In this document: piece by piece, positions 1,156-62,808 of the stretch | Layout of the letters: the number at the start of each line of letters is the position of its first letter | Numbering within the stretch: the stretch's first letter is position 1 | Assembly (NCBI RefSeq): GCF_003259895.1 | Contig: NZ_QLME01000015.1 | Location: forward strand, 1 to 64,000 | Direction of reading: 5' to 3' | From: Halanaerobium saccharolyticum | GTDB lineage: Bacteria; Bacillota; Halanaerobiia; Halanaerobiales; Halanaerobiaceae | DNA length: 64,000 bases | The notes under the pieces: model-generated | Databases searched by the model: none | What the model saw: the letters and a program-made list of their open reading frames with translations, nothing else | Told to the model about the DNA's origin: nothing | Translations under genes and position numbers: made by a program

Positions 1156-2505
1156 TTAATCACTCTCCACTTTTTTTAATAATGCATAGAAAAAGCCTTC
1201 TGAATCGACTTCTCCCGGCAAAAGTTCTAAAAATTCATTATTCTTTTCCAGGTTTAAACTACTTACTTTACTCAATTTTTTATTAATATCTATCAATTCA
1301 AAATCTTTATTTTCAGATAAAATTCTTTTTATTAAATCCTGGTTTTCTTCCCTGGTTAAAGTACAGGTGGAATATAATAATTCTCCCCCAATTTTAAGTT
1401 TATCCAGATTATTACTCAGAATCTTATACTGCAGTTCAGCCATCCTCTTGATAACTTGTTCATCTTTATCCCACTTAATCTCCGGCTTAGAAGCAATAAG
1501 TCCCAGGCCTGAACATGGTAAGTCTGCCAGAATTTTATCATATTTTTTGTTATCCTCATATTCAGCAGCATCACCCTTTTTTAAATTAACATTTTTAACT
1601 CCCAGTCTGGACAAATTTTCTTTAACCAGATTTAAACGATGCTGACTGATATCCAGGGCTGTAATCTGACCGGTGTTGTTCATTAACTCAGCTAAATGCG
1701 AGGTTTTTCCGCCCGGAGCAGCAGCAAGATCAAGGACCTCCATATCTACTTGAGGATCTAATAATAAAGAAGCAAGTCCTGCAGATGTTCCCTGAATATA
1801 GGCAGCTCCTGTTTTAAAAGCCCGGGTAGCTGCAGGATTATTAACTTCCTTAAGCCTATAAAAAGAATTTAAAAAAGTATTTTCATATTTTATTTGATCT
1901 TCTGCCAGCAAATCAATAAATTCCTTTTGGTCCACTTTTAAAGAATTATGGCGATAAATCACTTCTGCCCTCTTATTTCCTGCCTTTAAAATCATTTCAG
2001 TTTTGCTTAAACCATAATCTTTAATAAAACGTCTGACAAGCCAGATAGGATAAGAATATTTTATTGATAAAAATTTTTCAGGATCATCTTTTTTAAGGGG
2101 AAGTTGTATCTCTTCCTGTTTTCGATTAATATTTCTTAAAACACCATTGGTGAAAGAAACAGCTCCCTTTCTGCTGACAGGTAGTAAAATTTTTACAGCT
2201 TCTACACTTTCAAAAATTGCTGCTCTTGCCGGTATCTTATCAAGAAAAAAGAGCTGATATACACCAATTCTCAGCCCCATTAAAACTTCTTCATCCATTT
2301 TTGACAGTGGAGTCTTAGAAAATTGTTTAACTATATAATCAAGATACAATTTATTTCTAATTACACCATAAAAAATTTCTGTAAATAAATTTTTATCTCT
2401 CTGATCATCAATATTTTCCAATTTAGAATTTAGCAGCAAATTGGAATAACTCCCTTTTTCAACTCTAAGCAGTGCCTTTAAAATTTCCAGTCTCAAATTC
2501 TTCAA
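1156..2505 (-). CDS. rsmB: 16S rRNA m5C967 methyltransferase RsmB
   Basis: Methylates C967 of 16S rRNA. An N-terminal NusB-like helical RNA-binding domain (about residues 1-130) precedes a SAM-dependent methyltransferase domain. The SAM-binding motif AAAPGGKT is at 261-268. Both family cysteines are present, Cys331 in DLPCSG and Cys381 in STCTLT. The start is TTG with AGGTGAT upstream. It abuts the YugP-like gene with no gap and follows fmt/def as in other Firmicutes. The length of 449 aa is normal. Confidence 0.95.
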   Translation of the reverse strand: MKNLRLEILKALLRVEKGSYSNLLLNSKLENIDDQRDKNLFTEIFYGVIRNKLYLDYIVKQFSKTPLSKMDEEVLMGLRIGVYQLFFLDKIPARAAIFESVEAVKILLPVSRKGAVSFTNGVLRNINRKQEEIQLPLKKDDPEKFLSIKYSYPIWLVRRFIKDYGLSKTEMILKAGNKRAEVIYRHNSLKVDQKEFIDLLAEDQIKYENTFLNSFYRLKEVNNPAATRAFKTGAAYIQGTSAGLASLLLDPQVDMEVLDLAAAPGGKTSHLAELMNNTGQITALDISQHRLNLVKENLSRLGVKNVNLKKGDAAEYEDNKKYDKILADLPCSGLGLIASKPEIKWDKDEQVIKRMAELQYKILSNNLDKLKIGGELLYSTCTLTREENQDLIKRILSENKDFELIDINKKLSKVSSLNLEKNNEFLELLPGEVDSEGFFYALLKKVESD

Positions 2506-3215: not shown

Positions 3216-4160
3216 TTAAGCACTAGTAAATTTATTTCCTGTTTCGATTTGATGTCCATTTAAAAAATCCTGAACATTCATTTTTTTTCCACCGGGAAGC
3301 TGCAGTTTTTCTATTGATAAAACCCCAGCAGCTGTTTGAACCTGTATCCCATCAGCATGATTTGCTCGGATAATTGTTCCCGGCTCAAAATCACTATCTT
3401 CAAGATCACTGATTTTGCTTTCCCAGATCTTAATTTTTCTACCATCAAGCTCTGTGTAAGCTCCAGGCCAGGGATTAACCCCTCTAATTAAATTATAGAT
3501 ATCCTCTACCCTTTGATTCCAATCAATTTCACCCAGAGATTTATCAATTTTATAGGCAAATGTTGCTTCAGAATCAGACTGGGGAATTCGGGGAGCCTCT
3601 CCTGCCTTAACATCTTTTAGTGTCCTAAGCAGCAGTTCAGCTCCTCTATCTGCCAGTTCATCATGCAGATCGCCCACAGTATAATCTTCTTTGATTTCAA
3701 CTTCCTGCTGATAAATAATATCTCCATCATCCCAGCCTTCGTCCATATACATGGTAGTATTTCCAGTAACTTTTTTTCCATCTATTATTGCTTTATGAAT
3801 TGGACTGGAACCCCTGTATTCAGGCAGTAAAGAAGCATGAAGATTAATACATCCGCATTCCGGTATTGCCAGTAATTCCGGGCTTAACTTCTGCCCAAAG
3901 GCTACTACCACTATAAAATCAGGTTCCATTGCTCTTAATTTAGCCAGAAAATCTGGTTGATTTACATTTTCACTCTGTAAAATTTTCAAATTCAAAGTCC
4001 GTGCTTTCTTTTTAATATCAGAATAATGAACTTTCTGGCCTCTCCCACTTTTACGATCAGGTTGAGTAATTACAGCTTCAATTTCAACCTGCTGGTCATT
4101 ATTTAATTTTAACAGGGAAGGAACTGCAAATTCAGGTGTTCCCATAAATATAATCTTCAT
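3216..4160 (-). CDS. fmt: Methionyl-tRNA formyltransferase
   Basis: Transfers a formyl group from 10-formyl-THF to Met-tRNAfMet for translation initiation. The N-terminal catalytic domain opens with MKIIFMGTPEFAVPSL. The catalytic signature reads HASLLPEYRGSSPIHKAI; the usual AAPI is SSPI here. The C-terminal OB-like domain occupies about residues 205-310. Start ATG 4160 has GGAGTGATTTG upstream and overlaps neither neighbour. A longer frame would overlap def. It is paired with def, the deformylase that removes the same group. Confidence 0.96.
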   Translation of the reverse strand: MKIIFMGTPEFAVPSLLKLNNDQQVEIEAVITQPDRKSGRGQKVHYSDIKKKARTLNLKILQSENVNQPDFLAKLRAMEPDFIVVVAFGQKLSPELLAIPECGCINLHASLLPEYRGSSPIHKAIIDGKKVTGNTTMYMDEGWDDGDIIYQQEVEIKEDYTVGDLHDELADRGAELLLRTLKDVKAGEAPRIPQSDSEATFAYKIDKSLGEIDWNQRVEDIYNLIRGVNPWPGAYTELDGRKIKIWESKISDLEDSDFEPGTIIRANHADGIQVQTAAGVLSIEKLQLPGGKKMNVQDFLNGHQIETGNKFTSA

Positions 4161-4164
4161 CAAA

Positions 4165-4617
4165 TCACTCCGCAATTTTTACAATTTTATCAACAAATAA
4201 GACTCCATCTAAATGATCAATTTCATGTTGAATTGCTCTGGCTTCAAACCCTTCTGCTTCAAATTCAACTTCTTTACCTTCTCTATCTAAACTTTTTACT
4301 TTAATTTTTTCAGCTCTAATTACATCACCAGTTTCACCGGGAATACTGAGACAACCCTCTTCCATAATTGCCTTACCCTCGGTTTCTATAATTTCAGGAT
4401 TTATTAAAACAATTTTATTTTCTTCTCTGATATCTACTACAGCTATTCTTTTTAAAATTCCAACCTGGGGAGCTGCTAGACCCACCCCATCTTCTGCATA
4501 CATTGTATCAAAAAGATTATCTATTAAATCATTAGTTTTTTTACTTACAGCATCTATTTCTTTTGCTTTACTTCTTAAAACTGGATCTCCAATCTCTCTT
4601 ACCTTTAAAAGAGCCAT
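4165..4617 (-). CDS. def: Peptide deformylase
   Basis: Removes the N-formyl group from nascent proteins; metal-dependent. All three family motifs are present: GVGLAAPQ (44-51), EEGCLS with the metal-ligand Cys89, and HEIDH (131-135) with two metal-ligand histidines and the catalytic Glu. The length of 150 aa is normal. A strong GGAGGTAGATATC precedes the ATG. It lies just upstream of fmt and 22 bp downstream of priA, so probably in the same operon. Confidence 0.97.
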   Translation of the reverse strand: MALLKVREIGDPVLRSKAKEIDAVSKKTNDLIDNLFDTMYAEDGVGLAAPQVGILKRIAVVDIREENKIVLINPEIIETEGKAIMEEGCLSIPGETGDVIRAEKIKVKSLDREGKEVEFEAEGFEARAIQHEIDHLDGVLFVDKIVKIAE

Positions 4618-4639: not shown

Positions 4640-6865
4640 TTATAACATTTGATAGGGATCTACATCAATACGAATTTCAACCGAATCACTGTCATTTTTT
4701 TCAATAAACTTTTTTTCTATTAACTGAATAATATATTCCCGATTGCGCATCGAATTAAACTTTAAAATCAACTGCCAGCGATATTTATTTCTAATTTTAC
4801 TTAAAACTGCAGGTGAAGCACCCAATTTCTCCAGATACTTATCTTTATAATTATCCAAAAAAGTTGATAACTTTTTACTTTGAGCTGCAGCCTTTTCTTC
4901 AGCTTCTGCACTAATTATAATATTTAGAAGTCTGCAAAAAGGAGGATAATTCCTCTGCTTTCTAATTTTAATTTCTTTCTGATAAAAAGAATATTTATCA
5001 GGGGCTAAAGCAGCCTGAATACTGTAATGATCAGGATCATAACTCTGCAGCCAAAACTTGCTGTCTGACTTATTTAGTAGCAGGGATTTTAATTCCATTA
5101 ACAGAGAATAATTATTTTCAGCAGCTCTAAAATCAGAACTGTTTAAAGCGGTATCTGCAGAAATAACAGCTAAAAATTTAAGCTGATCATAAAATTGATT
5201 TTTTATCAAAATTGAAGTTCCAACTAAAATATCAATTTCTCCTTTTTTAAAATTCTTTAACCTCTGTTTTACTACCCTTTCTTTTAAATCACTATCAACT
5301 CTGACAATCTTTAAATCCTGATAAAGAGTTTTTAACTGTTCAATAATTTTTTCAGTTCCAACTCCAGCTTGCGAAATAAAACGACTTCCACATTCCGGAC
5401 AGTTATCAGGCACTTCTTTTTTTAAACCACAATAATGACAGCGGAGTTGATGCTGCTCCCTGTGATAATTTAAAGAAATATCACAGTTATCACATTTAAG
5501 CACATGACCGCATTTTCTGCAGATTAGATAATTTGCAGAACCACGTCGATTTAAAAATAAGATTATTTTATTATTTTTTTTTAGCTGATTTTTGATTTCT
5601 GTTATTAAATCCTGACTCAAATCACCAAGATTACCCTTTTCTACTTCCTTTTTCATATCAATAATCTTTGTCAGTATTTTACTTTTTTTGGGGTTCAATT
5701 TCATTTGCTGATACTCCCCTGCCAAAGCATGATATTGACTTTCCAGAGACGGAAAAGGTGATTCCAGAAGCAGAAGTGAATTATTCTTTTTTAAACGTTT
5801 AACTGCAATCTGTCTGGCATGATATAAGGGATGTTCCTGAGCTTTATAACTTTCATTATTTTCTTCCATAATAATTACAGCATTCAGCTCAGAAAAAGGA
5901 GCAAAGATAGCCGATCTAGCACCTACAGCAATTTTTACCTTTCCATTTTTTATCTGCTGCCACTGATCAAAACGTTCACCTCTGGATAATTGACTGTGGA
6001 TAAAGGCTATATTATCACCAAACTGATTATTTAATTGTGCCAGAAATATCTGATCTTTTTCGATCTCTGGAATTAAGAGTATAATATTTTTCTTTTCTGC
6101 CAGCAGTTTTACCAGCAGTTTAATAATAAAGTTATACCGTCTCTGGCCATTTTCTGTAGTTAAAAGATATGAATTGTTTTCTGAATCATTATCTGTGAGC
6201 TGGTCTATAAGTTCTTTTTCCTGCTGCTGAAGCGGAAAATTATATTCATCTGCTTCTTTTAAATAAATATTCATCTCTGGAATTCTTTCTTCAACATCAG
6301 TATATAAAGTTATTAAATCTTTGTCTATTAAACGGAAAACAGTTTGACGAGAAGTTTCTGCAGATTCAACAACTTTTTTCAATTTATGTTTTTGTTCACT
6401 GTTTTCCAATAAATATTTTAGAATTAAATATTGTTTCGGTGCTCGTATTTTTAATTTATCAAGCTCATTTTTATAATCAGTAATTTCTGAGTTTAATTTA
6501 AGGAATTCCACCTCTTTTTTTCTGATTTTTTGTTCAGTAATTCCAGGTGGTAAAGCTTTTTTAATAACCTGAGCCAGATAAGCATGGTAATAAGCTGCTG
6601 TCCAGTAAAATAGTTTTAATAATTCGTCCCCAAAAAAACTCTGTTTATATAAGAGCGACTCGATCTCTTTTAATTTTGACTTTTTTATATCTGTTTTGGC
6701 TTTAAACCCAGTCACAAAAGCTGACAATTTTCTGCGTCCAAAAGGAACTCTGACAATCTGCCCCACTTCTAACTCAGATTTTAACTTTTCTGGCAAAAGA
6801 TAATCAAATTCTCTATTTATTGTTTTTAAAGGTAGATCAACCACAACCTTTACTATATCCTTCAT
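4640..6865 (-). CDS. priA: PriA (primosomal protein N') with degenerate helicase motifs
   Basis: Replication-restart protein, full length (741 aa). The N-terminal 3'-DNA-end-binding domain is about residues 1-105. The eight zinc cysteines are intact (449, 452, 458, 461, 476, 479, 489, 492), and the C-terminal domain ends in VDPYQML. The helicase motifs are altered: Walker A GxxGSGKT reads TTENGQRR (236-243); the DEEH box reads MEEN (333-336); motif III GSATPS reads LESPFPS (367-373); motif V KGHD reads KNQF (555-558); the motif VI QVAGRAGR region reads ELKSLLLN (591-598). The frame is open and surrounding family sequence is conserved, so this looks like a maintained loader without ATPase rather than a pseudogene. 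Confidence 0.9.
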   Translation of the reverse strand: MKDIVKVVVDLPLKTINREFDYLLPEKLKSELEVGQIVRVPFGRRKLSAFVTGFKAKTDIKKSKLKEIESLLYKQSFFGDELLKLFYWTAAYYHAYLAQVIKKALPPGITEQKIRKKEVEFLKLNSEITDYKNELDKLKIRAPKQYLILKYLLENSEQKHKLKKVVESAETSRQTVFRLIDKDLITLYTDVEERIPEMNIYLKEADEYNFPLQQQEKELIDQLTDNDSENNSYLLTTENGQRRYNFIIKLLVKLLAEKKNIILLIPEIEKDQIFLAQLNNQFGDNIAFIHSQLSRGERFDQWQQIKNGKVKIAVGARSAIFAPFSELNAVIIMEENNESYKAQEHPLYHARQIAVKRLKKNNSLLLLESPFPSLESQYHALAGEYQQMKLNPKKSKILTKIIDMKKEVEKGNLGDLSQDLITEIKNQLKKNNKIILFLNRRGSANYLICRKCGHVLKCDNCDISLNYHREQHQLRCHYCGLKKEVPDNCPECGSRFISQAGVGTEKIIEQLKTLYQDLKIVRVDSDLKERVVKQRLKNFKKGEIDILVGTSILIKNQFYDQLKFLAVISADTALNSSDFRAAENNYSLLMELKSLLLNKSDSKFWLQSYDPDHYSIQAALAPDKYSFYQKEIKIRKQRNYPPFCRLLNIIISAEAEEKAAAQSKKLSTFLDNYKDKYLEKLGASPAVLSKIRNKYRWQLILKFNSMRNREYIIQLIEKKFIEKNDSDSVEIRIDVDPYQML

Positions 6866-15315: not shown

Positions 15316-17067
15316 ATGGCCTTTGATGGAATTATGTTGTCTGCACTTAAAGATAATTTAAAAGAAAAAATAACAGGTGCCCGAATCGAAAAGGCTTACC
15401 AAATAGACAAAAAGTATCTAATTATCCGTTTAAGAAATAATAATCAGAATTTAGAACTATTAATTTCTACTGATCCTCAGGGAGCAAGAATGAATTTAAC
15501 TAAATTAGATTTTGACTTTCCCTCTTATCCACCTGACTTCTGTATGATGCTCCGCAAATACTTAAAGAATTCATATATTCAGCAGATAGTGCAGCCTAAA
15601 TTTGAAAGAATGATCAGAATTGATATTGAAAAAAGAGGAAAAAAATTCAGTTTAATTGCCGAACTTATGGGTAAATACAGTAATGTAATTCTTTTAGATG
15701 ATAATGAAATGGTACTTGATGCAATGAAAAGAATTACTGAAAAGCAAAACTCTGAGCGGCAGTTATATCCAGGAATAAAATATCAATATCCACCGGGTCA
15801 GGATAAGTTAAACCCACTTGAACTAAACAGCAAAGAAGAATTTAGACAAATCATTGAAGAAGAATTTTCTCAAGCAGCTTTTAGAGCCGTGATGTATAAC
15901 TTTAGAGGAATTGGCCCCTATTCAGCTCGCGAAGTAGTTTTCAGAGCTGGTATTGACCCCTCTGAAAATTATAATGATTTATCTGATTCAGAAAAAAATA
16001 AAATTGCTGAATCAATGCTCGCTCTTTTTGCTCAGTTTAAAAAGGGTATTTATAATCCAGTTATTGGTATAACAAAAGAGGAAGTAGACTATATTTCTGC
16101 CTTTATCCTTAAACATAGAAACCCGGAAGAGCTCAAAGAATTTGACGACCTTGACCAGATGATGGATTATTATTTTAGAGAATTTTTAAAAGATAAAGAA
16201 TTGAACCGGGGAATTAGAGAATTAAATAAAGTAGTTAACAATTATTTAAATAAAAATCTTAAAAAACAGAAAAAATTAAAAAAACAGCTGCAGGAAAGCA
16301 AAAATGCAGAAAAATACAAAAAAATGGGAGAGTTAATTACGGCTAATATTTACCAGATAGATCGAGGTGATAAAAAAGTTGTAGTCAATGATTATTACAG
16401 TGAAGATCAAAATGAGATAGAAATTCAACTTGATCCTTCCAAATCTGCTTCTGAAAATGCTCAAAAGTATTATAAAAAATACAATAAACTTAAAAAGAGT
16501 GTTAAACATCTAAAAAGAGAAATTGCTAAACTCAGGCATGAAGAAAAATATTTAAAACAGGTCAGTATGAATATTGAACAGGCAGAAAATTTAGATGACT
16601 TAGAAGAGATTAAAGAAGAATTGAAAGAAGAAAATTATATTAAAAAACAGAAACAGAATAAAAGAAATAAGAGCAATAAAAAACTTCCGCCCCGAAAATT
16701 CATTTCCAGTGATGGTTACCAGATTCTGGTGGGTAGAAATAATAAGCAAAATGATCGACTGACTAAAAAAGTTGCCAATGATGGTGATATCTGGCTGCAT
16801 ACTAAAGTAATAGCTGGCTCTCATGTAATTATTAAAAGAGACACTGATAAAGATGTTCCGGATCAAACATTAACTGAAGCAGCAGCAGTTGCCGCCTATT
16901 ACAGCAAAGCAAGAGAATCTACAAATGTACCGATAGATTACACTCCCGTAGAAAATGTAAATAAACCTAAAGGAGCAAAACCAGGCCTAGTTTACTACGA
17001 AAAATATCAAACAATTTATATTGACCCGGCTGATAAAACATTATTAAAAAAATTAGCAGCAGATTAA
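15316..17067 (+). CDS. rqcH: RqcH (NFACT-family ribosome quality control protein)
   Basis: Binds stalled 50S subunits and recruits tRNA-Ala to add C-terminal alanine tails; formerly called a fibronectin-binding protein (FbpA/YloA). From ATG 15316 the protein is 583 aa. It has the NFACT-N domain (MAFDGIMLSALKDNL... to about 200), HhH and long coiled-coil regions (about 280-440), and the NFACT-R domain near the C-terminus (DIWLHTKVIAGSHVII, PIDYTPVENVNKPKGAKPG). GGAGTG 6 nt before ATG 15316 supports that start over the GTG at 15307. It is convergent with lnt, sharing a TTAA at the ends. Confidence 0.93.
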   Translation: MAFDGIMLSALKDNLKEKITGARIEKAYQIDKKYLIIRLRNNNQNLELLISTDPQGARMNLTKLDFDFPSYPPDFCMMLRKYLKNSYIQQIVQPKFERMIRIDIEKRGKKFSLIAELMGKYSNVILLDDNEMVLDAMKRITEKQNSERQLYPGIKYQYPPGQDKLNPLELNSKEEFRQIIEEEFSQAAFRAVMYNFRGIGPYSAREVVFRAGIDPSENYNDLSDSEKNKIAESMLALFAQFKKGIYNPVIGITKEEVDYISAFILKHRNPEELKEFDDLDQMMDYYFREFLKDKELNRGIRELNKVVNNYLNKNLKKQKKLKKQLQESKNAEKYKKMGELITANIYQIDRGDKKVVVNDYYSEDQNEIEIQLDPSKSASENAQKYYKKYNKLKKSVKHLKREIAKLRHEEKYLKQVSMNIEQAENLDDLEEIKEELKEENYIKKQKQNKRNKSNKKLPPRKFISSDGYQILVGRNNKQNDRLTKKVANDGDIWLHTKVIAGSHVIIKRDTDKDVPDQTLTEAAAVAAYYSKARESTNVPIDYTPVENVNKPKGAKPGLVYYEKYQTIYIDPADKTLLKKLAAD

Positions 17068-17078
17068 TTTCTGCTGCT
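17055..17078. terminator. Bidirectional terminator with both stop codons in its loop
   Basis: AGCAGCAGA and TCTGCTGCT form a perfect 9-bp stem around the 6-nt loop TTAATT. The loop contains the rqcH stop (TAA, plus) and the lnt stop (TAA, minus). On the minus strand it is followed by AATTTTTTTAA, a strong U-tract. The plus side has a weaker CCATTTATTCTT. Confidence 0.85.
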
Positions 17079-18569
17079 CCATTTATTCTTAACTATAATA
17101 ATAATTTTAATTAAAGAAATTGCAGAAAAAAGAATAATGATGATATTAATTATTCTGGCTGGATATTTCTGGTAATAACTTTCCTTTTTTTGTAAAACAA
17201 GATCAAACGTTTCCCTGCTGTTTTTTATTCTAAGCTTCTTTACTACCTTTCCCCGTTCATTTATATAACCACTAAAACCACCTCTAATAGCTCTAATCAA
17301 ATCAGTATTAGTTTCTGCAGCTCTATAGACTGCTGCCGCAAAGCTAAAATTATTATACACTGCAGAATTAATTTTAGCTTCAGCTGCTGAATGAACAATT
17401 AGATTCTGTCCCTGAGTATAGCTTTTTTCTCTGGAAACAAGGGGAATGAAAATTTCTTCTGCAAAAAGATTGATATAATGGAGCTCTTCTGCTTCAACAA
17501 CAACTGCCGTATCAGGAGATTCAGTCTGCTTTACACTGAAATTTAAATAATCTGTCAGAAAATCAGTTATCTCCCTTAAATAAGGGAAATTAAGACCTGC
17601 AATAATATTTCTGTCCTGATTATTGCGATTAATAACTTCCATTTCTCCTGAGATTAAGAAAAGCGAGTTAAGAACTTCAGCATTGTAGCTTTCCTCTGCT
17701 GCTGCCTGAGCACCTAACTGTAAATAGAAAGGTTCTGTAATATTTCCCAGTTGAGAAAAAAACTGATCTCTATAATAATTATTTCTAATTAAATCAAAGC
17801 TGAGACTTTTTTCAGGGGTAAAAATAAATTTACTCTCGCTATTTTCTACCAGAACTGAGAGCTTATCAATCTCTGTTTCTATTTTTTCAAAAATATTATT
17901 TCCCTGCTCAGAATTAGAGACCAGTAAGTCAACTGACTGGCTATTTATTTCTGCATCAGTAGCTGGTTGTATAAAAAAAGGAACAGCGATTAAAATCAAA
18001 AAAATTAAAAGCAGCGGCAGAAATTTTTTCCAGGCAGGTTCTAAATAAATCTTTACAAAATAAGAAGCAATTAAAACTGAAATAAAGGAAACAATAAAGA
18101 TTCCACCATAGGAAGCATACTGAACAATTAAAGCAAAAGAACTTTGAGTATAGGCAAAATAATTAAACGGATTAAAATTAAAAAATTCAAAACGTAAATA
18201 TTCTAAAACTGTCCAGCTTAAAGCAGCAATAAACGGGCTGTACGAATGTTCCGGCTGCAAAAATTTATTCACTAAAACCCAGACAGCAAGTGGTAAAGCT
18301 GAAAGTAAAAAATAAATAAATAAAATGAATAAGTTAAAAGAAAATGGCATTTTAAGGGCTGTACTGAGGGGATGATAAAGCCAGTAAAAAGAAAAAACAG
18401 AGTTTAAAAACCCTACCAGTAAAGCAATGATAAAAGAATGATTGTAATCATAATCTCTAATCAAATAGACTAAAGGGATAAAAGCAAACCAGCTTAAAAA
18501 AAATAAAGCGGGGAAATAGTATGGTATTGTAAATAGTAATGATGATAAAATAATTAAAATAAATTCCAT
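17064..18569 (-). CDS. lnt: Apolipoprotein N-acyltransferase homologue lacking the catalytic Cys
   Basis: Lnt-like membrane protein, 501 aa. Six or so N-terminal helices (to about 200) precede a nitrilase-fold domain, ending in RAIRGGFSGYINERG (426-440) and a last helix. Start ATG 18569 has GGAGG upstream; the longer frame runs into the upstream terminator. Glu253 (FTPEKS) matches the nucleophile-activating Glu. The K..LVPFGE motif is replaced by NRNNQDRNIIAG (314-325). The ICYE motif carrying the catalytic Cys reads INLFAEE (366-372), and the protein contains no Cys at all. It is probably not a standard Lnt enzyme. Confidence 0.82.
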   Translation of the reverse strand: MEFILIILSSLLFTIPYYFPALFFLSWFAFIPLVYLIRDYDYNHSFIIALLVGFLNSVFSFYWLYHPLSTALKMPFSFNLFILFIYFLLSALPLAVWVLVNKFLQPEHSYSPFIAALSWTVLEYLRFEFFNFNPFNYFAYTQSSFALIVQYASYGGIFIVSFISVLIASYFVKIYLEPAWKKFLPLLLIFLILIAVPFFIQPATDAEINSQSVDLLVSNSEQGNNIFEKIETEIDKLSVLVENSESKFIFTPEKSLSFDLIRNNYYRDQFFSQLGNITEPFYLQLGAQAAAEESYNAEVLNSLFLISGEMEVINRNNQDRNIIAGLNFPYLREITDFLTDYLNFSVKQTESPDTAVVVEAEELHYINLFAEEIFIPLVSREKSYTQGQNLIVHSAAEAKINSAVYNNFSFAAAVYRAAETNTDLIRAIRGGFSGYINERGKVVKKLRIKNSRETFDLVLQKKESYYQKYPARIINIIIILFSAISLIKIIIIVKNKWSSRN

Positions 18570-18610
18570 ATCTCTGCCTCCAGCAATTATTATATAATAT
18601 AAACTGAAAA

Positions 18611-18635
18611 AAGACCAGCTGTGAAAGCTGGTCTT
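18611..18635 (-). terminator. Terminator of the EF-G paralogue
   Basis: AAGACCAGCT and AGCTGGTCTT form a 10-bp stem with a 5-nt loop. On the minus strand the arm runs straight into a T-run (TTTTTT). It lies 20 nt past the stop. A TATAAT-like stretch between it and the lnt SD may serve lnt. Confidence 0.88.
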
Positions 18636-18654
18636 GATTATTTTTATTTTATGG

Positions 18655-20727
18655 TTATGATTTTTTTCCATTAACCTCTTCTATAATTTTTTCACTGATA
18701 TCTCCTGGAACTTTATCATAATGAGAAAATTCCATATCAAATGAACCATAACCACCCGTAATTGATTTCAGCTCTACAGCGTAGTTAAACATTTCTGACT
18801 GCGGCACCTTAGCTTTAATAATCTGAACTCCATCCTGAGGCTCCATACCTTCAATTCTACCACGTCTGGAGTTGAAATCACCCATTATATCTCCCATAAA
18901 GTCCTGAGGAACCGTAACCTTAACAGACATAATTGGCTCTAATAAAACGCATTTGGACTGAGCCAGTGCTTTTCTAAATGCTTTAGAAGCTGCAATTTTA
19001 AAGGCCATTTCTGAAGAATCAACATCATGATAAGAACCATCATATAAAATAACTTTAAAATCAACTACAGGATAACCAGCCAGTACTCCCTCTTCTTTGG
19101 CTTCAATAATTCCTTTTTCGACACCAGGTATATACTGTCCTGGAATTGCACCACCAAAAATTTCTTCTTGAAACTCAAAACCTCTACCTCGTGGAAGCGG
19201 CTCAACCTTCATCAGTACATGTCCATACTGACCACGTCCACCGGATTGCTTTTTATATTTTTCTTCTACATCTGCCTTTTTTTGAATAGTTTCTCTATAA
19301 GCAACATCTGGCTCCTGAATTGTAAAATCAATATCATATTTGCGCTGACATTCTTCTTTAACCATAGTAAAATGGATTGTACCCATTCCATCACAAATTA
19401 ATTCCTTGGTCACTTTATTATAATTAACATTAAATGTTGGATCGGAATCACTATACCGATGTAAAGCAGAAGCCATTTTTTCTTCATCGATTCCTTCAGC
19501 TGGAAAGGCAGCCCGGCTGTACATTGGCTTGGGGAATTCTAATTCATGATAATAGATATCTGTTGCTGGGTCTCTCATAGTAAAGGAAGTTTCCAGCTCC
19601 TCTAACTTTGCTACAGCTCCAATTTCTCCTGCAGTTAAGTCATCAACATTATCCTGGTCTTTTCCATTAAGTTTATACAGTTTAGTAACTTTAATTTCCT
19701 CATCAATATTTGGAATATAAACTAAATCGTCCCTTTCTAATTTACCAGAAAAGACTCTAAAGATAGATAATTTACCAATGTAGGGATCAACCATTGTTTT
19801 ACATACCTGAGCACTGAATTTACTATCCGGTTCTGGTGTCAGTGTTTTTCCTGATTCAACTAAATGATCGGAATGTACTTCAGATGCTGAAGGGAATATT
19901 TTTGTTAAATCATCTAAAAATTTAGCTACCCCACAGTTTTCTATTGCAGATCCTGCAAAAACAGGAACTAACTGTTCACTTGCAACCTCTTCTTCAAAAG
20001 CTTTAGTTAATTCTTTAATAGTTATTTTTTCACCATCAAGATATTTAATCATTAAATCTTCCTTTAATTCAACTATCTCTTCGGTTAGTTTTAATTCATA
20101 ATCTTCTACTCTTTCTTTTTCTGAATCTGGTACCGGAAAAGCCTTATGTTTTCCGTCTACATTTTTATATAATTTTTCATCTAATAAATCAATTATCCCT
20201 TCGAATTTTCCATTCTCATAATGCGGGATAGTTACAATCGCAAAACTGTCATCATATGTAGAACGAAGTTCATCAACAACTTTATCAAAATCTGCATCCT
20301 CTTTATCAATTTTATTAATAAATACAGCCTTTGCCAGATCATTTTTCTCTGCTAAATCCCAGACATAGCCTGTATTAACTTCGATTCCGGCTGCTGCATC
20401 AACTAAAAGCACCGCACTCTCTACCATTCTTAAGGCACTGATTACTTCACTTCGAAAATCAGCATAACCGGGTGTATCAATAAAATGAAATAATTTATTA
20501 TGCCATTCAAAATTAAAATAACTATTATGAACTGAATGATGATGTTCTTTCTCAACTGCACTAAAATCGGATTGGGAATTTCCTTTATCAACACTGCCGG
20601 GCTCATTAATCACTCCTGCATTATAGAGCAGCATCTCAGTCAGTGTTGATTTACCCGCACCTCCATGTGATATAAAGCAAAAATTTCTAATGTCCTTACT
20701 AGTAATTTTACTCAATTTTTCCACCAA
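18655..20727 (-). CDS. EF-G family translational GTPase (EF-G2 / FusA2 type)
   Basis: Five-domain EF-G paralogue, 690 aa. The GTPase motifs are HGGAGKST (21-28), DTPGYAD (84-90) and NKID (138-141). The catalytic-loop GHVD of ordinary EF-G is GYAD here, as in the EF-G2/EF-G-like subgroup. Later domains match EF-G, including GRGQYGHV and FMGDIMGDFNSRRGRIEGME. Canonical fusA usually sits with rpsL/rpsG/tuf, and here no such genes are near. Its job is uncertain, perhaps a stress- or growth-phase variant. The start is ambiguous among the TTG at 20727, the next GTG, and a TTG three codons on. Confidence 0.88.
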   Translation of the reverse strand: MVEKLSKITSKDIRNFCFISHGGAGKSTLTEMLLYNAGVINEPGSVDKGNSQSDFSAVEKEHHHSVHNSYFNFEWHNKLFHFIDTPGYADFRSEVISALRMVESAVLLVDAAAGIEVNTGYVWDLAEKNDLAKAVFINKIDKEDADFDKVVDELRSTYDDSFAIVTIPHYENGKFEGIIDLLDEKLYKNVDGKHKAFPVPDSEKERVEDYELKLTEEIVELKEDLMIKYLDGEKITIKELTKAFEEEVASEQLVPVFAGSAIENCGVAKFLDDLTKIFPSASEVHSDHLVESGKTLTPEPDSKFSAQVCKTMVDPYIGKLSIFRVFSGKLERDDLVYIPNIDEEIKVTKLYKLNGKDQDNVDDLTAGEIGAVAKLEELETSFTMRDPATDIYYHELEFPKPMYSRAAFPAEGIDEEKMASALHRYSDSDPTFNVNYNKVTKELICDGMGTIHFTMVKEECQRKYDIDFTIQEPDVAYRETIQKKADVEEKYKKQSGGRGQYGHVLMKVEPLPRGRGFEFQEEIFGGAIPGQYIPGVEKGIIEAKEEGVLAGYPVVDFKVILYDGSYHDVDSSEMAFKIAASKAFRKALAQSKCVLLEPIMSVKVTVPQDFMGDIMGDFNSRRGRIEGMEPQDGVQIIKAKVPQSEMFNYAVELKSITGGYGSFDMEFSHYDKVPGDISEKIIEEVNGKKS

Positions 20728-25208: not shown

Positions 25209-25829
25209 TTATAATTTTTCTTTTAACAGCTTCATTCTAAAAAATTCCTCTCTTTCTTTCTCTTCCAATCTTTCTTCAATAAACTTGACCGTATTTTTAT
25301 AACGAGGAATTAAAATGTTGTCTAAAGCATTTGCTCGTTTTTGAGTCTTTTTAATTGAAGCTGCAAGTCTGTAGACAGAAGTTTCAATTTCAGCAAGTCT
25401 GCTGATTAAATAGACTACTCTTTGAAAATTTTTATAGGCCCTATCTAAAGCCAGATTGGTTTTATAAAAACTATAGTGTGGAGATATTTCTTCTGACAGT
25501 TCTTCTACCTCTGGTATTTCAACACCCATTACACTGTAAGTTCTGATCTTCAAATTATCTATCAAATCAATACCTGCTGCTATTTCTTCTACGGTTTTTA
25601 TTCCCTGGGTAATATCCACAATTTGCAGAGCTTCATAAGCATTATAAAAATACTGATTGATTTGAGACTGTATTTCTTTTGCTTCATCTATCCTTTCCAT
25701 CATTTCCTTAATTAAAACATTTCTTTTCTTATCTAGAAGCTCATAACCTTCTTCAGCAAGTTCAAGTGAACTTTTTGTAGATAAAAGATTGCTTTTAGTT
25801 GGAGATATTTTAAGTTTCTCCATTTTCAT
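25209..25829 (-). CDS. ntpD: V-type ATPase subunit D (central rotor stalk)
   Basis: Rotor-axle subunit linking the catalytic head to the membrane ring. It is a long two-helix coiled coil, 206 aa, with the family N-terminus [10 protein letters not shown] and a C-terminal helix ending near [22 protein letters not shown]. It is the last gene of the operon and overlaps the end of ntpB by about 20 bp. AGGAGG precedes ATG 25829; a second ATG two codons later is possible. Confidence 0.95.
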
Positions 25830-27204
25830 CTTTCCTCCTATAATATTTGTCGATTAACTCTTCTGATAATCTATCCAGTTCATGTTCGGGGAGTTCTGAA
25901 ATAAGATCCCAGGCTAAAGAAAGAGTTTTTTCAATATTACGATTGGTCTTTTTATCCTGATTGAGAAATTTAGCTTCAAATTCACTGCCAAATTTAAGAT
26001 ATTTTTGATCTATTTCTGAAAGCTCATCTTCCCCAATTACTGAAGCTAATGATTTTACTTCATTAACATGAGAATAAATAGCATATAATTGGCTGGAAAC
26101 ATCAGCATGATCCTCACGTGTGTATTCAGCACCAATGCCATCCTTCATCAGACGAGAAAGTGAAGGCAAAATATTAATAGGAGGATAAATATCTCTCTGA
26201 AATAAATCTCTTTCTAAAACTATCTGACCTTCTGTTATATATCCTGTTAGATCAGGTATTGGATGAGTTATATCATCATTAGGCATTGTTAAAATTGGAA
26301 TCTGGGTTATTGAACCTTCTCTTCCTTTGATCATTCCTGCTCTTTCATAAAGACTGGCTAGGTCACTGTAAAGATAACCTGGATAACCTTTTCTACCAGG
26401 CACCTCTCCTCTTCGAGATGAAAGTTCTCTTAAGGCTTCAGAATAACTTGTCATATCAGTCATTACAACTAAGATATGCATATTTTCTTCAAAAGCAAGA
26501 TATTCAGCGGCGGTCAGTGCCACCCTGGGGGCAATAATTCTTTCTACAGACGGGTCATCCGCTAAATTAACATACATTACAACATTCTGTAAAACTCCAC
26601 TTTCTTCAAAACTATTTATAAAATATCTTGCATCATCATGCTTTATTCCCATTGCTACAAATACAATCGCAAATTTTTCATCCTCCTTACCCAATTTTGC
26701 CTGTCTTGTTATCTGAGCTGCAAGCTGATTATGGGGAAGACCATTACCAGAAAAAATAGGTAATTTCTGACCTCTGATTAAGGTCATCAACCCATCAATT
26801 GCAGATACTCCTGTCTGAATATAATTTCTTGGATACTGCCGCGAATAAGGGTTCATTGGGTTAGAGTTTATATCATATTTATTCTCCGAGTAAATCTGGC
26901 CTCCATTATCAGTTGCTTCGCCGACACCATTAAAAACTCTGCCTAAAATATCCTTACTTAAAGCTATTTTCATTGGTTCCTGCAAAAATTTAACTCTTGT
27001 TTCGTTAATATTTAAACCGGTACTACCTTCAAAAACCTGAACTACAGCTCTATTCGAAGCCACCTGTAAAACTCTTCCTTTTCTTACTTTACCATTGGGA
27101 GCTGTCACTTCGACCATCTCATCATAAGCTACATCATCTATATTTTCTACTACAATTAGTGGACCATTAATATTAGCAAGTCCAGTATATTCTTTTTTTA
27201 ACAT
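25810..27204 (-). CDS. ntpB: V-type ATPase subunit B (non-catalytic head subunit)
   Basis: Regulatory nucleotide-binding-fold subunit of the A3B3 head, 464 aa. Family features are [27 protein letters not shown] and [25 protein letters not shown]. It lacks a catalytic Walker A, as expected. ATG 27204 follows GGGGGAG by 6 nt and gives the usual [15 protein letters not shown] start. It is placed between A and D as in enterococcal and clostridial V-ATPases. Confidence 0.96.
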
Positions 27205-27221
27205 TATATACTCCCCCACTA

Positions 27222-28991
27222 TTATTGATAATCATCAGCAAGCTGCTGATAAAAATCGTCTATTTCATTCTGAAAATCTTTAATTTTATCTACTTCATCA
27301 TTAGCAACTGTACTCTTTAACCTCAATAATCTGTTAAATAACTCATTATTTTTTAGCTGACTGATTGGAACATTTTTCTTAACCAGCGGCTTTGCCTGAT
27401 CATAAAGATAAAGAATAATTTTTAAAAGCCAGTATTGTTTTTTGATATCAGAATATCTATCAATGTCATCAAAAGCATTCTGCTGTAAAAAACCAACTTT
27501 TATCAGTTTTGCTATTTCTAAAATCAAACGCTGATTATCCGGTAACACATCTTCGCCGACCAGTTGAACTATATCCTGCAGTCTTGATTCTTCTTTCAAT
27601 AAAGACATTGCCCGACTTCTTAACTCAAGCCATTCCCGGTTAACATTGTCTTTAAACCAGGGCTCCAGGTCTGTTAGATATTCACTATAACTATCAAGCC
27701 AACTTACTGCTGGAAAATGTCTAGAAGCAGCCAGTGATTTATCAAGAGCCCAGAAACAGCGAACAAATCTTTTGGTATTCTGAGTAACAGGTTCAGAAAA
27801 GTCTGCACCTGGAGGTGATACTGCTCCAATAAGTGAGATGGATCCTTCATTTTCACCGGCAAGGGTTTTTACATAACCTGCCCTTTCATAAAATTCTGCC
27901 AGTCGAGTTGGAAGATAGGCTGGAAAACCTTCTTCGGCAGGCATTTCTTCCAGACGGCCCGAAATTTCTCTTAAAGCTTCCGCCCATCTCGAAGTAGAAT
28001 CAGCCATAATTGCTACATTATATCCCATATCACGATAATATTCTCCCAGAGTAATTCCGGTATAAATACTGGCCTCTCTTGCAGAAACAGGCATATTTGA
28101 AGTGTTAGCAATTAAAACTGTCCTTTCCATCATTGATTTACCAGTTCTAGGATCTGTTAGTTCTGGAAACTCTTCTAAAACATCTGTCATTTCATTTCCA
28201 CGTTCTCCACAGCCAATATAGATAATTAAATCCGCGTCTGACCATTTGGCCAGCTGATGTTGAGTCATTGTTTTGCCGGCTCCAAAACCCCCGGGAATAG
28301 CAGCTGTACCACCTTTAGCAATTGGAAAAAAAGTATCAAGTACCCGCTGACCTGTAAGTAATGGCTCTCCTAATTCAAGTCTATCACTGTAAGGCCTTGG
28401 TTCTCTAATCGGCCATTCTTGATAAAGTTTTATTTCAGTTATATTTTCTTCTTCATCCCTTATTTTAGCGATTACATGATCAATAGAGTATCTACCATCA
28501 GGTACCAGGTCAATAATTTCTCCTTCTTTTCCAGGAGGAACCATAATTTTATGAACAATGACTGAAGTCTCATCAATTTCTGCTATTATCTGACCTGACT
28601 TAAGATAATCACCCTCTTCAACCAGGACTTTTAATTCCCATTCTTCATCCGGATTTAAAGCACTCACCTTGGCACCTCTTTCTATAAAAGGACCACTTTT
28701 TTTCTCTAAAAATGGCAGAGGTCTCTGAATACCATCAAATATATTTCCAATTATACCTGGACCAAGCTGAACTGAAAGTGGATGACCGGTAGAAAACACT
28801 GGTTCACCAGGCTTCATTCCACTCGTTTCTTCATAAACCTGAATAGTAGCTGAATCGCCATCAAGTTCAATTATCTCACCAACTAATTTTAATTCTCCAA
28901 CATAAACAAGCTCTCGCATAATATAACCGGACATACCTTTCGCCTCAACAACCGGGCCATTTATAAAAGTTATTTTTCCCTGTTTTTCCAT
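27222..28991 (-). CDS. ntpA: V-type ATPase subunit A (catalytic)
   Basis: Catalytic head subunit, 589 aa. The Walker A loop is GGFGAGKT. The A-subunit bulge domain (about 110-200) precedes the nucleotide-binding fold, and [22 protein letters not shown] carries the Walker B region. ATG 28991 is supported by AGGAG and gives [13 protein letters not shown]. It could run as ATP hydrolase or synthase. Confidence 0.97.
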
Positions 28992-29017
28992 ACTCACCAA
29001 CTCCTAATCCATTTATC

Positions 29018-29635
29018 CTACTTCTGTGTTAAAATATTATTCTTTAATTCTATAGCTATCTCTTCTCTAAATGAACCAATTAAGGCCGCAAAAGTATTTT
29101 CTAGCAGCTGCTGATTATTTTTGGCTTTAATTATAAAGCCACCGGATTTAATTTTCTCAGTTAGTATCATATCGAATTTGTAATCATCCATTTCTTTCTC
29201 CAGCAGTTCCTCTAAATCAGATTTGAATTCACTGTCTTTTTTTCTTAATAAAACGGTAAATTCACGATCCGGCAATTCTTTAGCAGCTGCTTTGATAGAA
29301 TTAAAAATAAATAAACAATAATCTTTTTCAGCTGTAAATTCATCCAGTATCTCATGTAATTCCTGAATAAAGTTATTAATCAAATCATTTAGTTTTTTTC
29401 TCTTGAGATTTTTCTTTTCTAAAATGGCTCTTGAAATTATCTGTTCTCTTTTTTGTTCCGCCATATTTTCATAATTATTTACAATATTTTTCTGCTTATT
29501 ATCCAGCTCTTCTTGAAAATCATCATATTTTTTCTGTAATTCTTTACGTTTCTTTTCAATTTGATTGTTATTTTCCTGCTTAACCTCATCAATAATCTCA
29601 GTTTTAATGGTCATGATTTTTTCTGCAATATCCAC
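29018..29635 (-). CDS. ntpE: V-type ATPase subunit E (peripheral stalk)
   Basis: Peripheral-stalk subunit that pairs with the G/H subunit, 205 aa. It has a long N-terminal charged coiled coil (to about residue 90) and a globular C-terminal domain. The start is GTG at 29635, about 7 nt after GAGGTGAT. An out-of-frame ATG lies 4 nt upstream of this GTG and opens a frame of only 11 codons (MSGYCRKNHDH), which could compete for ribosomes. The 5' side holds a 59-bp tandem repeat. Confidence 0.9.
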   Translation of the reverse strand: MDIAEKIMTIKTEIIDEVKQENNNQIEKKRKELQKKYDDFQEELDNKQKNIVNNYENMAEQKREQIISRAILEKKNLKRKKLNDLINNFIQELHEILDEFTAEKDYCLFIFNSIKAAAKELPDREFTVLLRKKDSEFKSDLEELLEKEMDDYKFDMILTEKIKSGGFIIKAKNNQQLLENTFAALIGSFREEIAIELKNNILTQK

Positions 29636-29652
29636 TCATCTATCACCTCTTT

Positions 29653-29776
29653 TGCTGAGTTTTCTTTTATAAGCGCATGGTTAACTCTGCATTAATACAT
29701 CGAGCATGTCATGCTGAGTTTTCTTTTATAAGCGCATGGTTAACTCTGCATTAATACATCAAGTATGTCATGCTGA
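29653..29776 (-). repeat. 59-bp tandem repeat in the ntpF-ntpE gap
   Basis: Two copies (29653-29711 and 29712-29770) differ at 2 of 59 positions, and the first 6 bases of a third copy follow. In the transcribed strand each copy contains TGCAGAGTT and AACTCAGCA, able to pair as an 8-of-9 stem around a 21-nt loop. A 13-nt palindrome (AGCATGACATGCT) spans the copy junction. The unit is not a multiple of 3 and carries no ORF above 7 codons. Confidence 0.95.
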
Positions 29777-29782
29777 TCCTGA

Positions 29783-30094
29783 TTAAATTTTAATACCAAT
29801 CGATTCCTGGACATATTTTGTGATATATTCTGGCTCTTCCTCAGGATCAACATGTCGATCAGGAATCTCCAGCACCAGGGGGAGCTCCGCAGACAATTTC
29901 AAATCATCAATTAAATCAGGAACCAATTCTGCTAATTTCCTTGTAATTAAAAGTATCCCAATATCACTTTTTTGTCTAACCCGGTTAATCTCTTCTATTA
30001 CTTTTTCTTCTTCATGGATAACAACTCCATTTATTCCAACTAATCTTAAACCTATGTTGGTATCAATATTATCGCTAATGCAGTATATTTTCAT
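29783..30094 (-). CDS. ntpF: V-type ATPase subunit F (central stalk)
   Basis: Small Rossmann-like rotor subunit that binds D, 103 aa. The family N-terminus MKIYCISDNIDTNIGLRLVGI and the central GILLITRKLAELVPDLI are clear. It starts 11 bp after ntpK and is followed by the repeat-containing gap before ntpE. Confidence 0.93.
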   Translation of the reverse strand: MKIYCISDNIDTNIGLRLVGINGVVIHEEEKVIEEINRVRQKSDIGILLITRKLAELVPDLIDDLKLSAELPLVLEIPDRHVDPEEEPEYITKYVQESIGIKI

Positions 30095-30104
30095 AATAAA
30101 CCAC

Positions 30105-30524
30105 CTATAATCTTCCCAGGATCATTATAGAAATTATTAATCCATAAATTGCAATTCCCTCTCCTAAACCAATAATAATTAAGGCTCTACCTAAAATTTC
30201 AGGTTTTTCACTGATTGCTCCAATGGCAGCTGAACCAGCAATTCCTACTGCAATTCCAGCACCAATCGAGGCAATTCCTACTGCAAGACCTGCCGCCAGA
30301 TATCCCAGTCCTAAATTAGAAGCTGTATTAAGAGCTGGATCAGCAGCATATACTTTCGCCGGTACAACCAAATCCGATCCCAGAATTACCAGAGTAAATA
30401 ACAAAATTAAATTAATACTTAAAATTGAACACTTTAACCATTTTTTATCTGTTTTCTTAAACATAATTATTCCCCCTATAAGTGCTGTAATAAATAAACT
30501 TAATAAAGCTAATGTTAAAATCAT
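30105..30524 (-). CDS. ntpK: V-type ATPase subunit K (c-ring proteolipid)
   Basis: Membrane-ring subunit, 139 aa. The ion-carrying Glu122 is in LGEGIAIYG on the last helix. The ring hairpin covers about residues 70-138. The N-terminal part has one hydrophobic segment (1-20), then Met21, a basic stretch, a second hydrophobic segment (33-50) and VYA-ADP at 58-63, which reads like a signal peptide. GGGAGG supports Met1; a GGGGGA run before ATG 30464 would also allow Met21. The position after Glu122 is Gly, and the position matching Gln32 of Ilyobacter c-subunit is Val93, so typical Na+ ligands are not evident. Confidence 0.9.
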   Translation of the reverse strand: MILTLALLSLFITALIGGIIMFKKTDKKWLKCSILSINLILLFTLVILGSDLVVPAKVYAADPALNTASNLGLGYLAAGLAVGIASIGAGIAVGIAGSAAIGAISEKPEILGRALIIIGLGEGIAIYGLIISIMILGRL

Positions 30525-30596
30525 TTTTATTTCCTCCCATTATAATATTTATAATCTTTACCGAGTTTTTTAAAAAAAGTTAAATAATCCTAAAAA

Positions 30597-32516
30597 TCAT
30601 TTAATCTTAAGTGGTATTAATTCTCTTCCACTACCACTATAGAATTTAGCAAATATCTCAAAAAACTCCAGCCTTAAAATTTGAATTCCTACTACTACAC
30701 CTTCCAGAACCATAATAACAATGTTTCCGACAATTAAAACCAGAAGACTACCAGCGTAATTATTTATCATTTCTGATAAAATAATTACTGCCATAGACAG
30801 CCCAACATGATTTAAAGTAAAGGCTCCAACTCTTAAAAAAGATAGGGTGTTACTCAAATAACCTAAAACTGTATCAAAAAGTTCAAATGCAGATTCCAGT
30901 ATATACTCAGATATTTTTTTATCTATACTAAACCTCTGTTCAGTTAATAAATTGCCAAGTGGTTCTTTAAGAAATATAAGCAGTAATAATATTATAAACA
31001 CAGCAGCTATAACAGATGCCGGCATTAAGAGTTTACTCTGGATTCCATAAAAAGCTAAATTTACAAGTAAAAATAGATATAATATTAAACCACTTAAACC
31101 ACTATCAGAAAATAATGCCTCTGTATAATCTTTATTTTTAAAACTATTAAATAAATTAAAAATCATCGAGGTAATTAAAAGCAAAATACCAATCATCACA
31201 GTAAAACCGAGCCAAAACATAATATTATCCATCGGTCTAATAATAAGAGCAGGTATCAGATCTTCCAGTCCAAAAAGACTGCCATAAAATGTACCAAAAA
31301 GCATTGAAGAAAATCCAATTGAAATCAGAATATAGGCTGCATTCTTATTCTTAATGAAATCTATTTTATTTTTATAAATAGCAAACCCCAGACTGACAAA
31401 TACAAAGCCCTGTCCTAAATCTCCAAACATAATTCCAAATAATAAAATATAACTCAAAGCAAAAAATAGCGATGGATCAATTTCGTTATACTTCGGAAGA
31501 CCATAAAGTTTAACCAGAGATGAAAATGATTTAATCCACTCTGGATTTTCAATAATTGTTGGTGGATTCTCCTCTTCAACATTTTTAACTTCCTGGCTGC
31601 TATATATTACTTTTTTATATTTATTTGATATTAGTTTTTCAAATTCTTTCTCATTTTCTTCACTTATCCAGCCAGTTGTAATAAAAAAATAATCACTTTT
31701 ACCATAAAAATCATTATTAACATCTGTAATTTTATTAAAAACCAGTAACTGCTGATAATAATCTAATAACTGACTTTGATGGCGATGTTTTAATTTTTTA
31801 AATTCTAAACTGATTTGATCTCTGATAATTTCTATCTTATTAAGCCTGTGTCTGGCCTGATTTAATATCTCTCGAGGCTGCCCTTTGACTCTCTCAGGTA
31901 ATTCAATCCTCTGAAAATTTGCTGAGTTCAAAATATCAAGTGCTTTTTGTTGATAATTCTTTTTAGCAAATGTAAAGAACCATACTCTATCTTGATCTCT
32001 ATTAACTTCAAGAACAAGCACAGGAACCTCAGTAACATTCTCAATTAAGCGCTCATATCTTTCCTGACTTAAGCTACTAAAGATTAGAGTAATATAAGAT
32101 AAATTTTTTAAACTCTGAAGTTCTATATCAATATTTCTCATTACATAAACATGTTTAATAAGATTATTTAAACGTTTTTCCTCTGCATCCAATTTTTTTG
32201 TTATTCTTTCGAGTTTATCAATTTTTTGTTGAATTGGTCTAATAAAATCTTTGAACTTTTCCAGATCAACTTTATTTAACTTATCGAAATTAATATTTTC
32301 AATTATTTTATTTAAGTTTAAGCTATCCAGAATCCTATCTAATTTATTAAAACATGATTTATAAGAGTTTTTAATTTGACTGCTTTTGAAATTTTCATGA
32401 TATTTTTCAGTTTTTAAAAGTTCTATCTCTTTGTTCCTCATCATCTCCTCAGTTATAGAATCAATATTTCTTTTCAAACCAAGAATCTGAAATTTTTTCA
32501 TAATTTTAATTCCCAA
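30597..32516 (-). CDS. ntpI: V-type ATPase subunit I (membrane stator subunit a)
   Basis: Stator subunit with the ion half-channels. An N-terminal cytoplasmic coiled-coil arm (about 1-330) precedes a C-terminal membrane domain with about seven helices, starting near YILLFGIMFGDLGQG and including SFLRVGAFTLNHVGLS. About 639 aa. The start is probably TTG 32516, 7 nt after GGAGG. The longer frame would start at a GTG within the SD, and the next ATG (32501) is too far from it. Confidence 0.94.
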   Translation of the reverse strand: MGIKIMKKFQILGLKRNIDSITEEMMRNKEIELLKTEKYHENFKSSQIKNSYKSCFNKLDRILDSLNLNKIIENINFDKLNKVDLEKFKDFIRPIQQKIDKLERITKKLDAEEKRLNNLIKHVYVMRNIDIELQSLKNLSYITLIFSSLSQERYERLIENVTEVPVLVLEVNRDQDRVWFFTFAKKNYQQKALDILNSANFQRIELPERVKGQPREILNQARHRLNKIEIIRDQISLEFKKLKHRHQSQLLDYYQQLLVFNKITDVNNDFYGKSDYFFITTGWISEENEKEFEKLISNKYKKVIYSSQEVKNVEEENPPTIIENPEWIKSFSSLVKLYGLPKYNEIDPSLFFALSYILLFGIMFGDLGQGFVFVSLGFAIYKNKIDFIKNKNAAYILISIGFSSMLFGTFYGSLFGLEDLIPALIIRPMDNIMFWLGFTVMIGILLLITSMIFNLFNSFKNKDYTEALFSDSGLSGLILYLFLLVNLAFYGIQSKLLMPASVIAAVFIILLLLIFLKEPLGNLLTEQRFSIDKKISEYILESAFELFDTVLGYLSNTLSFLRVGAFTLNHVGLSMAVIILSEMINNYAGSLLVLIVGNIVIMVLEGVVVGIQILRLEFFEIFAKFYSGSGRELIPLKIK

Positions 32517-32518
32517 GA

Positions 32519-33574: not shown

Positions 33575-33579
33575 TGTTT

Positions 33580-62796: not shown

Positions 62797-62808
62797 ATTT
62801 TTTCTGCT
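62783..62808. terminator. Bidirectional terminator with both stop codons in its loop
   Basis: AGCAGAAAAA and TTTTTCTGCT form a 10-bp stem around a short loop that begins TTAA. The perR stop (plus) and the RNase HI fusion stop (minus) share that TTAA. The plan is the same as at 17055-17078. Confidence 0.8.

Follow-up and report, generated by a model that had tools for sequence, protein, structure and literature searches.

PriA is described as having helicase motifs that are well conserved among bacteria. Even so, Escherichia coli lives without that activity, which raises the question of what unwinding by PriA is for. Actinobacteria carry a divergent PriA that is putatively ATPase-deficient, a deficiency given in family annotation. 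An earlier note on the DNA analysed here had named actinobacteria as the precedent for its PriA; a very divergent and smaller protein does occur there (PMC1193525), but the best-proven precedent is Deinococcus radiodurans, whose PriA binds ssDNA, forks and DnaB but shows neither ATPase nor helicase activity (PMC4504706). In E. coli, the ATPase-dead mutants K230A and K230R still assemble primosomes and load DnaB (PMC10175261, PMC4504706), K230A doing so in vitro, and PriA-PriB restart in vivo needs no PriA ATPase (PMC10175261). The E. coli zinc region is a docking surface for loader proteins, and the aromatic loop wedges into the fork junction (PMC10175261). Fork binding swings the zinc region, which lets the lagging ssDNA pass through a pore and exposes the loader sites, and where the lagging strand is duplex, PriA must unwind it first (PMC10175261, PMC13377028).

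The PriA of the genus Halanaerobium is, very probably, a pseudohelicase fixed in the genus, which would recognise forks and recruit the helicase without ATP-driven unwinding. Like D. radiodurans PriA (PMC4504706), it has degenerate Walker A and B motifs and would keep the expected DNA-binding role. The Deinococcus lineage is unrelated to Halanaerobium; motifs I and II are those stressed for Deinococcus-Thermus, with a K-to-R change in Walker A (PMC4504706), whereas Halanaerobium has lost motifs I, II, III, V and VI, and Deinococcus-Thermus control genomes carry DciA, while Halanaerobium has a DnaI-type loader and no DciA. The E. coli K230A and K230R proteins are ATPase-dead through an engineered single change and not a natural loss of five motifs, and E. 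coli restart uses PriB and DnaT in place of Firmicute-type loaders. With canonical Bacillota PriA (from G021 of the same family, Halothermothrix and Bacillus) the Halanaerobium protein shares the orthologous locus, domains and zinc region, and with G021 also the loader operon; in canonical proteins, however, the motor motifs are intact and the lobes are conserved above the ends, the opposite of Halanaerobium. PriA pseudohelicases are a known kind. What this case adds is the lineage, how far the loss has gone, a setting with loaders of the DnaI type, and additional degenerate lineages in Bacillota. No description of a pseudohelicase PriA in Halanaerobiales or with DnaI-type loaders was found in the open-access literature, in which co-mentions of Halanaerobium and PriA appeared incidental by title, one being a match to 'PRIAM'.

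The priA locus of H. saccharolyticum and its motor motifs

In the window (the whole stretch of H. saccharolyticum DNA analysed, 64,000 nucleotides), priA is a single intact ORF of 741 codons with an ATG start and zero internal stops. The gene, its parts and its conserved neighbours are:

4640..6865, minus strand: priA, putative pseudohelicase form, 741 aa (TIGR00595 at 452 bits, PF17764, PF18074, PF18319)
6548..6865, minus strand: 3'-DNA-binding domain, aa 1-106 (PF17764; 11/11 near-invariant canonical residues kept)
6251..6547, minus strand: winged-helix region and linker, aa 107-205 (bounds from alignment to PriA; weakest constraint of the protein)
6137..6160, minus strand: lost motif I (Walker A), TTENGQRR at aa 236 for canonical HGVTGSGK(T)
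5858..5869, minus strand: lost motif II (Walker B), MEEN at aa 333 for canonical DEEH
5813..5839, minus strand: retained loop QEHPLYHAR (E. coli QQEGWRYHAR), which we take to be the aromatic-rich loop from the alignment to E. coli; genus per-site identity 0.90
5747..5767, minus strand: lost motif III, LESPFPS at aa 367 for canonical LGSATPS
5540..5563, minus strand: retained motif IV, ILFLNRRG
5390..5521, minus strand: cysteine-rich zinc region with 8 Cys, aa 449-492 (PF18319 and invariant columns)
5192..5203, minus strand: lost motif V, KNQF at aa 555 for canonical KGHD
5072..5095, minus strand: lost motif VI (arginine finger), ELKSLLLN at aa 591 for canonical QVAGRTGRG
4643..4945, minus strand: C-terminal domain, aa 641-741 (PF18074; 13/14 near-invariant canonical residues kept)
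4165..4617, minus strand: def, peptide deformylase, conserved neighbour of priA (TIGR00079)
3216..4175, minus strand: fmt, methionyl-tRNA formyltransferase, conserved neighbour of priA (TIGR00460)
1156..2505, minus strand: rsmB, conserved neighbour (NF011494, TIGR00563)

The product is a full-length PriA homologue with the domain order 3'-DNA-binding domain, winged helix, lobe 1, lobe 2 with the zinc region, and C-terminal domain. Its 452 bits to the NCBIfam profile TIGR00595 (cut-off 230) and its full length set it apart from the actinobacterial proteins. The Pfam matches are PriA_3primeBD, PriA_C and Zn_ribbon_PriA; against the NCBIfam and Pfam profiles the Helicase_C match is weak, and lobe 1 gives no DEAD or ResIII match. 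Current family models label Halanaerobium PriA a helicase. All eight zinc cysteines (aa 449, 452, 458, 461, 476, 479, 489 and 492) are invariant in a 14-sequence alignment, and these, together with the counts given above for the two ends, bear out the earlier observation that the zinc site and both ends are kept. The gene lies in the classic order priA-def-fmt-(Zn peptidase)-rsmB-rlmN, with synteny to def, fmt and rsmB retained.

It had been stated that all visible helicase motifs are lost. Five of them, I, II, III, V and VI, are indeed lost as quoted, but motif Ia (LLIPEI), a GARSAIFAP stretch, motif IV and the fork-junction loop remain. The motifs that mark an active SF2 (DEEH) helicase (I, II, III, V and VI) are lacking from the window protein, and we infer that Halanaerobium PriA would be unable to hydrolyse ATP or unwind DNA. 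The retained motifs Ia and IV and the kept lobe fold might be taken to favour ATP hydrolysis through a non-canonical site; this is highly improbable, since neither the Walker A lysine nor the Walker B Asp survives, motif V and the two motif VI arginines have gone as well, and a lone K-to-R change abolishes the ATPase and helicase activities of E. coli PriA (PMC4504706).

Modelling with AlphaFold2 (32-sequence alignment, mean pLDDT 87) predicts an intact full-length PriA fold. Its superposition on E. coli PriA bound to a fork and PriB (8fak) covers 629 residues at 2.8 A (Z 33.2), a closer fit than that to the apo form (4nl4, 4.6 A). A special loading-competent conformation gains no support from this, because a canonical control of the same order (L060) prefers the fork-bound shape likewise (3.1 A to 8fak, Z 34.8, versus 4.8 A to 4nl4).

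The H. saccharolyticum genome (99.97% complete) holds one PriA, and the search for a second, proposed in the earlier note, found none there or in two closed Halanaerobium genomes. A second canonical copy elsewhere was rejected, as the remaining TIGR00595 matches are RecG (G000:C38), Mfd (C21, called by protein size and its match to the RecG model) and a weaker one, a 676-aa ORF (C6) that is probably UvrB judging by its size.

Distribution and phylogeny of the loss

The loss of the five motifs was found in 10/10 Halanaerobium members with a full-length priA, H. praevalens included; the other two of the 12 genus genomes are drafts without the full gene (G019 has a fragment only, and in G020 no gene was found). 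A motif comparison over Halanaerobiales, in line with a check suggested with the original observation, confined the loss among the full-length genes of the order to Halanaerobium and one genome of a neighbouring genus (G022), while the other genera keep GVTGSGKT, DEEH, G(S/T)ATPS, KGHD and AGRTGR or close variants. The same division is seen in the TIGR00595 scores over 38 genomes of the order: 430-486 bits for full-length Halanaerobium proteins, 499 for G022 and 630-690 for the other full-length ones. In the G022 protein (G022:C1:63314-64804, L030), motifs V and VI have gone together with Walker A, but DQEH and SSPTPS stay near canonical; it is an intermediate stage in a stepwise erosion of the motor. 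Chance or a sequencing artefact is ruled out, because the same loss recurs in 10 congeners and G022 and the other genera are canonical.

In the phylogenetic tree, the 11 degenerate proteins (10 from Halanaerobium and that of G022) form one clade with support of 100/100, which joins canonical G021 of the same family at 100/97. This placement of one fully supported clade beside a canonical family member indicates a single vertical loss inside one family, and agrees with the earlier proposal that the event is independent of actinobacteria. Nested within a canonical clade, the window protein descends from an active helicase whose catalytic residues were lost. A horizontal origin was rejected, as the tree places the genus within its own family.

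A profile survey gave a PriA match in 394/398 Bacillota genomes. Outside Halanaerobiaceae, the only full-length, clearly degenerate proteins found were those of G267 (G267:C48, L144) and G418 (G418:C36, L147), both of family f113, and G290 (G290:C28, L141) of family f116, which share a conserved gmk/priA/def/rsmB locus, the same one as in Halanaerobium; because the survey used profile scores, single-residue losses would escape it. In the tree, these proteins from f113 and f116 group together; the grouping is flagged as long-branch attraction, so that they may stem from one loss or from two. Low-scoring matches in G078, G126, G253 and G310 were rejected as losses, being contig-end fragments. 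No PriA match was obtained at 1e-40 in G274 (96% complete), G193, G351 and G423, nor at 1e-20 in G274 and G193, which could reflect draft gaps or true absence.

Selection and the shift of constraint

Pairwise dN/dS values (Nei-Gojobori, Jukes-Cantor corrected) for Halanaerobium priA are 0.135 in the closest pair (dS 0.45) and 0.15-0.21 in the remaining close pairs, as against 0.08-0.09 for canonical pairs of the order. The gene as a whole is under purifying selection and is not decaying (dN/dS 0.13-0.21), which bears on the question of selection raised in the earlier note, although constraint is somewhat relaxed, with dN/dS about twice that of canonical PriA of the order.

The usual order of conservation is inverted in Halanaerobium, constraint having moved from the motor lobes to the DNA-binding ends. 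Per-site identity in the genus core is 0.749 in the ends versus 0.659 in the lobes, a difference (lobes minus ends) of -0.091 (95% CI -0.145 to -0.036, bootstrap over sites); in canonical families it is +0.146 to +0.184, the motor lobes being better conserved. Near-invariant canonical residues are kept in the window protein at 42/73 positions in lobe 1, 28/55 in the C-terminal part of lobe 2 and 17/19 in the zinc region. Identity of the aromatic loop is 0.90 in Halanaerobium versus 0.66 in canonical proteins order-wide, and conservation of this loop without the ATPase points to fork recognition. Among genus members, motifs I and VI are variable, at identities of 0.49 and 0.54, and some lobe sites conserved in canonical PriA now carry new fixed residues (V246F, L270K, G368E, A593K and others).

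The doubled dN/dS and the variable motifs I and VI are what a decaying pseudogene drifting to loss might display. Such a fate is scarcely credible for a gene whose ORF is intact in all full-length members with dN/dS far below 1, whose ends and aromatic loop are strongly conserved, and which is the sole PriA copy in a conserved gene order. With motor parts lost and fork-gripping parts guarded, Halanaerobium PriA would most likely be only a landing platform for the proteins of replication.

Loaders, other helicases and the proposed role

Contig C14 of the H. saccharolyticum genome (G000) encodes, head to tail, a protein with a DnaB_2 domain (373 aa), a DnaI/IstB-like AAA+ protein (356 aa) and a DnaB-family replicative helicase (460 aa), with scores at this locus (L152) of 41.7 bits for DnaB_2, 58 bits for IstB/DnaI-like and 282 bits for DnaB_C. 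The trio is also present in G022, and in G021, whose PriA is canonical; G014 and G031 have adjacent ORFs that match it in size and start. The loader set apparently lies complete in one operon. DciA is absent from Halanaerobium, and the DnaD_N domain gives only matches below the curated cut-off in the genus, which leaves the direct partner of PriA uncertain. A switch of loader as the cause of the motor loss was rejected, there being no DciA and the same DnaB/DnaD-like/DnaI-like/helicase operon in canonical G021. Family f1 has the DnaI-like gene between the DnaB/DnaD-like and replicative helicase genes (L152, L153, L154); in G008 (family f3, L157) the DnaB/DnaD-like gene adjoins the helicase gene and no DnaI-like gene lies between them. 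The SSB tip DDFDVPF is identical across Halanaerobium and reads DDYNVPF in G021.

The earlier suggestion that this PriA acts as a scaffold for a DnaB/DnaC loader gains support, as to the scaffold role, from the sole copy, the purifying selection, the shift of constraint to the ends and the loader operon at the replicative helicase gene; the loaders themselves belong to the Firmicute type, with a DnaB/DnaD-like and a DnaI-like protein. In the mechanism proposed, four parts of PriA would recognise abandoned forks and D-loops: the 3'-end-binding domain, the winged helix, the aromatic loop and the C-terminal domain. The last of these and the zinc region would expose docking surfaces for the DnaB/DnaD-like protein, which with the DnaI-like AAA+ loader would set the replicative helicase onto single-stranded DNA of the lagging strand. 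A fork with a lagging arm that is double-stranded right to the junction would need another enzyme to open it (the genus has RecG and PcrA), or would not be a substrate. PriA would be confined to recognition and recruitment, acting on lagging arms that are already single-stranded or have been opened by another helicase.

Outsourcing of duplex lagging-strand unwinding in trans to one particular helicase (RecG, PcrA, the second UvrD-like protein or RecQ) is a possible, though not the favoured, addition. RecG and PcrA-like proteins are encoded in all 12 Halanaerobium genomes, and RecG has been proposed to ready forks for PriA in Bacillus subtilis (PMC12748557), but none of the four tracks the motor loss: RecG and PcrA also occur in relatives with canonical PriA, RecQ is missing in G011, G013, G018 and G022, and no 683-aa second UvrD-like protein was seen in G011, G013 and G022, although each of these has a degenerate PriA. 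A helicase gained along with the motor loss was likewise rejected, since RecG and PcrA are present either way and RecQ and the second UvrD-like protein are patchy; the survey covered these four helicases.

The new residues fixed at conserved lobe sites, as for a new surface, would also suit a PriA that has left helicase loading for another role, e.g. as a passive fork protector or a gate against polymerase access. This is unlikely, however, given that the zinc region and the C-terminal docking domain are among the best-kept parts and that the genus still has a helicase-loader operon and the SSB tip.

If Halanaerobium PriA is such a recognition and recruitment platform, the motorless genus and its canonical relative of the same family would form a natural experiment on the functions that need PriA unwinding, and the 3'-DNA-binding domain, aromatic loop, zinc region and C-terminal domain would be marked as surfaces that may suffice for restart. 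A broader and rather doubtful extension is that the PriA motor is dispensable often enough for a non-ATPase loading platform to have evolved several times independently (in Halanaerobiaceae, f113, f116, Deinococcus-Thermus and probably actinobacteria), with the Halanaerobium lobes remodelled either into a fixed clamp on the fork or into a new surface where the DnaB/DnaD-like and DnaI-like loaders dock, and with strictly ATP-independent fork recognition.

Elsewhere in the window, an unusual 287-aa fusion (62793-63656, minus strand) pairs a carboxymuconolactone-decarboxylase/AhpD-like domain (aa 28-106) with RNase HI (aa 146-284). A 535-aa protein (17064-18671, minus strand) matches LNT_N (the N-domain of apolipoprotein N-acyltransferase) with no CN_hydrolase match in its C-terminal half, and is possibly a degenerate Lnt. 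A near-perfect (96%) 59-bp tandem duplication lies at 29653-29776, in a gap among the genes of an apparent V/A-type ATPase cluster (25209-33583).
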